Assembly (NCBI GenBank): GCA_003215935.1 | Contig: QCJQ01000003.1 | Coordinates: 1 to 64,000, forward strand | Source of the DNA: Prochlorococcus sp. AG-409-D09 | Lineage (GTDB): Bacteria > Cyanobacteriota > Cyanobacteriia > PCC-6307 > Cyanobiaceae | Direction of reading: 5' to 3' | Length of the DNA stretch: 64,000 nt | Shown: one piece after another, positions 53,218-55,643 of the stretch | Position numbering within the stretch: the first letter of the stretch is position 1 | Layout of the letters: every line of letters starts with the position of its first letter | The notes under the pieces: generated by a model | Told to the model about the DNA's origin: nothing | Database searches by the model: none | The model's input: the letters and a program-made list of their open reading frames with translations, nothing else | Made by a program: the position numbers and the translations under genes

Positions 53218-53302
53218 GGGTCGGTGCCCGAGTGGTTAATGGGGGCGGACTGTAAATCCGCTGGCTCTGCCTACGTTGGTTCAAATCCAACCCGGCCCAC
53301 CA
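53218..53302 (+). tRNA. tRNA-Tyr (anticodon GTA), long variable arm, encoded CCA
   Basis: Acceptor GGGTCGG/CCGGCCC, anticodon loop CTGTAAA, GGTTCAAATCC T arm, CCA end. Confidence 0.95.
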
Positions 53303-53317
53303 TAAATAAATACACAA

Positions 53318-53389
<72 letters not shown>

Positions 53390-53531
53390 TGACCCCTGAC
53401 CTAACTGATAACAAACAATCTCAGGCACTAAAGATTGCATTTGTATAAAATAGGATATCCAATTTCATGTCCACTTTTACTGAATGACAGATAATTCTTG
53501 ATTGGCGAATCTATTCTTATGCATCAAGAAA

Positions 53532-53669
53532 ATGGCAACGATTCCGAAAGGGAGGAAAGGCTGGCAAGCCTTAATTCGAAAGAAAAATTATCTAGTCAAT
53601 AAATCCAAAACATTTAGTTCTAAAACCCAAACCTTCTTATGGGCAAAAGCTGTTGAATGCTTAATTTGA
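53532..53669 (+). pseudogene. Truncated tyrosine-recombinase (phage-type integrase) N-terminal fragment
   Basis: MATIPKGRKGWQALIRKKNYLVNKSKTFSSKTQTFLWAKAVECLI*; matches the integrase N-terminal pattern (GxGWQAxIRxKGxxxxSKTFxTKxxAxxWAxxVE); begins 143 bp after tRNA-Thr. Confidence 0.7.
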
Positions 53670-53790
53670 AAAATACAAAGTAATATATAAACATCCTTAC
53701 AAAACTGATAGTATCAGCTTTGATGAATTTCGAGGCTATAGAATTGCGAAGAAAAATAATTGAACAATTGTATCGAAAAAAGAATATGTA

Positions 53791-53881: not shown

Positions 53882-54205
53882 CTAATCTTCTGCATTCTCA
53901 AATTGTTTTGCCAATCTAAATGCCTTTCTAATAATCAAATATGCCCCATATAATCCAGCTATTAATGGAAGAATAATTAAAGGGTTAGGACTATAACTAG
54001 AATAATCTTTTACTCCATCAACATAACTAACTCCAGAGCATTTTAAAAACATAAAGCTTGTAAAAACAATCGCCCATCCAAGTATCGAAAGTATTCCTCC
54101 TTTTTTATCCCCCTCATAAAACCTATCTAAACCCCATCCCCAACCAATACCTAGCAGGATGCCTCTTGTAACTGCATTTTTTTCTTGCTTACGGAGCATT
54201 TTCAA
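53882..54205 (-). CDS. Small membrane protein, TM2-domain-like
   Basis: 107 aa, GIGWGWGLDRFYEGDKKGGILSILGW resembles the TM2 pattern; two or three hydrophobic segments. Confidence 0.5.
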   Translation of the reverse strand: MKMLRKQEKNAVTRGILLGIGWGWGLDRFYEGDKKGGILSILGWAIVFTSFMFLKCSGVSYVDGVKDYSSYSPNPLIILPLIAGLYGAYLIIRKAFRLAKQFENAED

Positions 54206-54911: not shown

Positions 54912-55643
54912 CTATAATGATTGATCTTTAGATTTACTCTTAAGGAATACATTCATAAACCCTAATCCAAAGACAATTAAAGCAGAGAAAACCAAAACAA
55001 GTAAATAAGGTCCCTCAATAACTTTCACATCTCCATTAAGAACTTGAACTAAGCTTACATCTTTCAATTTACTAAGAGCAAAACCACCAGCAACAAAAGG
55101 CAAATCCGATATCAAGATACTTAATATCAAAGCGGGCATAAATTTTTTCCAAGAAATTTTTGTTAGTCCAACTGCATAACATACAAAATCAAACCATGAA
55201 GTCATCAAAAAACCTGTCATTAAAAATAAATTGTTCTCTAAGTAATTCGAACTAATACTCTCTACTCTCTTCATTTGATTTTGCCCTAAAATTTTTCTTA
55301 CAAAATTTCTTCCTAAGTTTCTCGAAATCAAAAATGAAATTGAACAAGAAATAAAATCAGATATAAACATAATTATAAGACCTTTTTCAATTCCATAAAT
55401 GTAACCAGAAATCACTGCACAATATGTTCCTGGTATTATAGGAACAACAATGCTAATTGATCTAAGTAAAAATATTATGAATGCCATATAAATACCAGCT
55501 GTATTAATATTATTTTGACTTCTTTGGACTATGCTAGTAATTAAATCAATATCAAAAAATTGATAGCTATAAACCAGGAAGAATAGTATCAAGGCAAGCA
55601 ATATATAATTTGATTTTTTTTTAGAGAAAAACTCCATTAACAT
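54912..55643 (-). CDS. TVP38/TMEM64 (SNARE-associated/DedA-like) membrane protein
   Basis: VVPIIPGTYCAVISGYIYGIEKGLIIMFISDFISCSISFLISRNLGR. Confidence 0.75.
   Translation of the reverse strand: MLMEFFSKKKSNYILLALILFFLVYSYQFFDIDLITSIVQRSQNNINTAGIYMAFIIFLLRSISIVVPIIPGTYCAVISGYIYGIEKGLIIMFISDFISCSISFLISRNLGRNFVRKILGQNQMKRVESISSNYLENNLFLMTGFLMTSWFDFVCYAVGLTKISWKKFMPALILSILISDLPFVAGGFALSKLKDVSLVQVLNGDVKVIEGPYLLVLVFSALIVFGLGFMNVFLKSKSKDQSL

Follow-up and report, generated by a model that had tools for sequence, protein, structure and literature searches.

A truncated tyrosine integrase beside a tRNA-Tyr/tRNA-Thr pair in Prochlorococcus as the probable scar of an integrative element

Why does a frame of only 45 codons stand behind a tRNA-Tyr/tRNA-Thr pair in Prochlorococcus? 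The window analysed here is a stretch of 64,000 nucleotides from a Prochlorococcus-like draft genome (G000; 1.22 Mb, 49 contigs, 65% complete). The original prediction had read this frame as the N-terminus of a tyrosine integrase, left by a past integrative element that used one of these tRNAs. The frame itself was confirmed, running on the + strand from an ATG at 53532 to the end of its stop at 53669 and encoding the peptide as quoted. Its ATG lies 142 nt behind tRNA-Thr(GGT), which is preceded by tRNA-Tyr(GTA). The features of the locus are as follows.

53218..53302, + strand: tRNA-Tyr(GTA) (ARAGORN); its last ~14 nt open the element-flanking repeat in relatives (from the repeat edges)
53318..53389, + strand: tRNA-Thr(GGT) (ARAGORN); relatives have a second copy at the far end of the element
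53390..53531, + strand: leader, forming the left end of the lost element; alignable with intact elements over their leader
53416..53437, + strand: inverted repeat CAATCTCAGGCACTAAAGATTG, conserved in the leader (sequence and leader comparison)
53450..53461, + strand: decayed palindromic arm-type motif, here ATAGGATATCCA, in the closest relatives AGTGGATATCCA
53469..53478, + strand: putative arm-type motif, single intact copy GTCCACTTTT
53532..53669, + strand: 45-aa ORF, N-terminal domain of a family-A tyrosine integrase
53658..53756, + strand: frameshifted integrase tail, poorly preserved, covering about codons 43-73; its right edge is approximate
54912..55643, - strand: VTT-domain gene, the first conserved core gene past the hot spot

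In profile searches the 45-aa peptide alone matched no Pfam or PHROG family, and its identification therefore rests on full-length relatives. A six-frame search of relatives found 67%, 65% and 62% identity to the starts of frames in three other genera, all directly behind the same tRNA pair and two of them intact 326-aa proteins. Against the integrase genes of three other genomes, which lie at the same distance from the same tRNA-Tyr/tRNA-Thr pair as the window frame, the peptide gave E values of 9e-14, 2.7e-13 and 2.6e-11; this similarity is far from chance. From tRNA-Tyr through codon 42 the window is 80% identical to genome G088 over 441 bp. The full-length relatives at the same aroQ/tRNA-Tyr-tRNA-Thr locus are tyrosine recombinases (PF00589, 1.4e-23; PHROG 1 integrase, 5.8e-51). 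Their catalytic residues (R197, H282xxR285, H308 and Y317) are invariant, and the PF00589 catalytic domain (R-HxxR-H-Y) that they carry has been lost from the window copy, whose peptide is homologous to integrase residues 1-43. The closest PDB sequence to the intact integrase is HP1 integrase (1aih). An AlphaFold model of the intact protein (mean pLDDT 67, used in its well-scored parts) has a catalytic domain resembling those of HP1 and lambda integrase, and forms strand-strand-strand-helix over residues 1-45 (pLDDT about 74-84 over residues 1-40), the shape that would be expected of an arm-type DNA-binding domain. Since the relatives are tyrosine recombinases and the model folds residues 1-45 in this way, the window peptide is the N-terminal, presumably arm-binding, domain of an integrase. 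The 62-67% identity to the starts of 326-aa integrases at the same locus of other picocyanobacteria supports the predicted assignment.

Intact integrases and cargo-bearing elements were found at the aroQ locus of relatives, at the same tRNA pair and with direct repeats, in keeping with the suggestion that a tRNA served as attachment site. These elements, here called family A, span 3.4-11 kb (8.6 kb in L065 from Prochlorococcus sp. AG-363-O06, 7.1 kb in L066 and 8.5 kb in L067), and are ordered as tRNA-Tyr, tRNA-Thr, a leader of ~140 nt, integrase, cargo, right end and second tRNA-Thr. The leader holds an inverted repeat, a GTGGACGTCCAC palindrome, another GTCCAC, and a second inverted repeat before the integrase; Rfam found only the two tRNAs above threshold when searched against the leader. 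The right end has GTGGAC and, 19 bp further, CAGCACTCCCTAAAAAAGATTTGG; the repeated tRNA block lies about 95 bp beyond. Each left leader has GTGGAC/GTCCAC two to three times; in 7/10 elements this sequence also stands at -19 relative to the right motif, and it is rare in between. An integrase beside the tRNA and a direct repeat at the far end are present in L065, L066, L067 and others, with exact repeats of the tRNA block of 97-101 bp in these three and of 176 bp in L060. The anticipated duplication of the tRNA-Thr end proved to be a second tRNA-Thr, usually complete: among 16 right-end motifs in 400 genomes, one of them cut by a contig end, all 15 readable ones continue into tRNA-Thr, which is decayed in two.

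The cargo of these elements is varied. L065 carries a GpgS-like glucosyl-3-phosphoglycerate synthase, a mannosyl-3-phosphoglycerate-phosphatase-family protein and a sucrose-phosphorylase-like enzyme, L066 a PrsW-type protease and a nuclease, L067 a Cas4-like PD-(D/E)XK nuclease and L061 a Mrr/ParA-like protein; these assignments are profile matches, several under curated cut-offs. No capsid or packaging-interference gene, such as would mark a phage satellite, was found among 28 cargo proteins searched against Pfam, many of which had no match at all. A conserved protein of 57-62 aa (MRTINQL..SGKTLTKREREAVERH) lies near the right end in several elements (L065:10710-10880, L066:9244-9417, L067:10238-10423). 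It had no Pfam match where tested and is a candidate excisionase or regulator.

Across 400 genomes of the family, the full-length, uninterrupted family-A gene is present in about 20 and remnants in 30 or more (counted by eye from the table, the other matches in the search being unrelated integrases). The tRNA-Tyr/Thr pair stands beside an integrase homologue in 28/30 fetched loci. Within the named GTDB genomes scanned, family A occurs only in Prochlorococcus and 'Synechococcaceae', mostly in single cells, and in MIT 9302 and MIT 9401 the gene is present with its reading frame interrupted. IMG/VR contigs gave no close relative of the integrase, only distant and mostly partial matches. In other genomes the remnants break off at a wide variety of points, from codon 16 to about codon 194, and the 45-aa frame is thus not a conserved gene; the prediction had named conservation as an intact stand-alone gene as the observation that would count against it.

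G251 has an intact second integrase, against which the decay of the window copy can be followed. Alignment with this gene holds through codon 43 and then needs one extra base, and the in-frame TGA of the window is the out-of-frame TGA inside TTTGAAAAA of the intact gene. The stop is the result of a one-base (+1) frameshift after codon 43. Past the frameshift, weak similarity runs to ~53756 (a remnant of about 75 codons) and then ends; the alignment score of this frameshifted tail was equalled by 3 of 1000 shuffles. It is thus moderately supported that the remnant is longer than 45 codons, with a weak tail beyond codon 43. The gene had been predicted to be cut to its N-terminal domain by a stop and decay: it has indeed decayed, but through a frameshift and with loss of its 3′ part as well. 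Over 42 codons, dN/dS was 0.19-0.33 in comparisons with the window and 0.06-0.20 between relatives. This is consistent with recent relaxation, in a sample that is small and does not reach to a date for the decay, and a window value below 1 is as expected if most change came before decay. No right-end motif was found in G000, and no second tRNA-Thr at the window locus. The window therefore holds a scar, the left end only, and not an element. Because the right end and the second tRNA-Thr are gone from the locus, we infer from the relatives that a whole element was once present.

Taken together, the 45-aa frame is very probably the scar of a family-A element that once sat at the tRNA-Tyr/tRNA-Thr pair and was not cleanly excised, as the intact elements at the same locus also support for the original prediction. 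An element of 3-11 kb would have inserted at the pair, the N-terminal domain of its integrase presumably binding the GTGGAC arm sites at both ends and the catalytic domain recombining within the shared tRNA block. In the window lineage it would then have been lost imprecisely. The integrase was frameshifted after codon 43, and losses, in whichever order, would have cleared the locus of the rest of the integrase, of the cargo and right end, and of the second tRNA-Thr. The scar would persist beside a tRNA pair that must be kept.

Other readings of the frame were considered. It covers the predicted arm-binding domain almost exactly and its dN/dS is below 1, as might be seen if it encoded a peptide with a function of its own, such as a repressor that binds arm sites and so blocks re-integration. 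However, the remnants of relatives end at many codons, several of them too short to fold (16-24), and the stop in the window arises from a frameshift, so that such a function is highly improbable. Tandem states occur elsewhere: G251 has two full integrases, and G101 and G063 each have a full integrase with an N-terminal remnant downstream. A later element could likewise have integrated between the tRNA and the remnant in the window and then left, with the older remnant kept. This would account for repeated cycles but not for the truncation of the window copy, the window locus bears no trace of a second element, and we regard it as distinctly unlikely.

Tycheposon recombinases are described as deep-branching, whereas the family-A integrase matches PF00589 strongly and is of the conventional phage type. 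Moreover, the 426-aa integrase of G196 is a different one, without significant similarity to that of family A (BLAST). It is therefore rather unlikely that a tycheposon, as strictly defined by Hackl et al. 2023, left the truncated integrase, although tycheposons and family A are both small, cargo-bearing elements of the same genus with a tyrosine recombinase and a tRNA site. Seven tRNA genes serve as tycheposon sites in Prochlorococcus (PMC10872708, a secondary source); integration at a tRNA gene, as seen in family A, is a trait common to many other element types. With integrases of the lambda/HP1 type (PF00589, PHROG 1) family A shares R-H-R-H-Y, an N-terminal beta-sheet domain and arm-like repeats at both ends, but no phage structural genes were identified in the family-A cargo searched. 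The ssrA islands of Dehalococcoides, which use a serine recombinase and leave a 20-bp fragment repeat (PMC3146451), are alike in having the target RNA gene directly repeated, in occurring in tandem and in varying in cargo. In contrast, the far end in family A is normally a complete tRNA-Thr and not a fragment. Elements of this kind are known, and the scar in the window is an ordinary example.

Carriers of the element with complete genomes (G081, G101 and G109) have two identical tRNA-Thr copies and scar or element-free genomes one, and in G010 and G370 the decayed tRNA-Thr is the far copy. The shared block reaches from the 3′ end of tRNA-Tyr, or in genus g80 from the 5′ start of that gene, to the 3′ end of tRNA-Thr. 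The sequences directly behind tRNA-Thr differ between the two sides in L067 and G370, which places the crossover no further along than the tRNA-Thr 3′ end. The distance from right-end motif to block edge is constant, at 90-96 bp in five elements, and together with spacer differences in L062 and L063 this favours the left edge (the tRNA-Tyr 3′ end in most). With moderate confidence, crossover would thus occur at the tRNA-Tyr 3′ end. Whatever its exact position, the circular form must carry one complete tRNA-Thr; which copy is native depends on that position, and the window tRNA-Thr (53318..53389) may itself derive from the element. In L061 (G251) the two integrase leaders seem, when compared with the integrase types, to have exchanged their first ~50 nt, which suggests that other recombination occurs too, within the leader.

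The region past the tRNA pair is a hot spot for insertion. The pair is 1.5 kb from the VTT-domain gene in the window, and further in mapped relatives. The core flank, VTT gene, psaE, mutM and rRNA operon (the names psaE and mutM being what we take these genes to be by sequence recognition), lies within about 13 kb in an order conserved as in relatives. Between the scar and the VTT gene is a 107-aa frame (53882-54205, minus strand) with no Pfam match and no homologue among the fetched loci. In G403 (L145:269-4375) the tRNA-Thr 3′ end is the site of an insert of 4.1 kb, at whose boundaries ~15 nt of that end are repeated. The insert contains a DNA cytosine methyltransferase-like gene but lacks an evident integrase, and a family-A remnant lies downstream of it. 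The 426-aa integrase of G196 (L246:5366-6643; weak PF00589 match) lies in an insert of ~12 kb behind the same tRNA-Thr. A 'TCGTCGGAGGGA...terminator' flank was considered as the empty site and dropped: it recurs elsewhere in G000 and leads into another insert in G196, and is thus not safe as the ancestral site.

Elsewhere in G000, contig C31 (L243:9018-9090) holds a decayed tRNA-Thr copy, 89% identical, beside tRNA-Ser(GCT) and alr. Behind it come a terminator-like hairpin and TGTTCCC repeats, a flank that second tRNA copies elsewhere also have. The C31 copy may be the far end of the lost element, displaced by rearrangement, or may stem from a separate event. Upstream of it are sulfotransferase-like genes and a serine resolvase, and contig C41 (L001:348-854) has a different phage-integrase-domain gene beside a ParB/methyltransferase-like frame.

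An easily skipped 45-aa frame thus flags a hot spot near the Prochlorococcus rRNA operon at which integration recurs. The whole range of states is represented, between the intact element and a stub of 16 codons, which makes such remnants usable as markers of past insertion. Through family-A elements, metabolic and nuclease-like cargo is moved in streamlined genomes. Most interesting are the apparent carriage of a whole tRNA-Thr by the element and the decayed tRNA-Thr on another contig of the window's genome. Tentatively, and with more doubt than conviction, a complete tRNA-Thr(GGU) might travel with family-A elements, joined in one lineage by tRNA-Tyr, so that after insertion at the tRNA-Tyr end the element copy would take its place by the shared promoter while the native copy is stranded and decays. 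Once that native copy is gone, the host would depend on the element-derived tRNA, which would fix the scar, and the window would be the end point of such a takeover. The tRNA duplication thus poses the question of whether a mobile element can replace an essential host tRNA.
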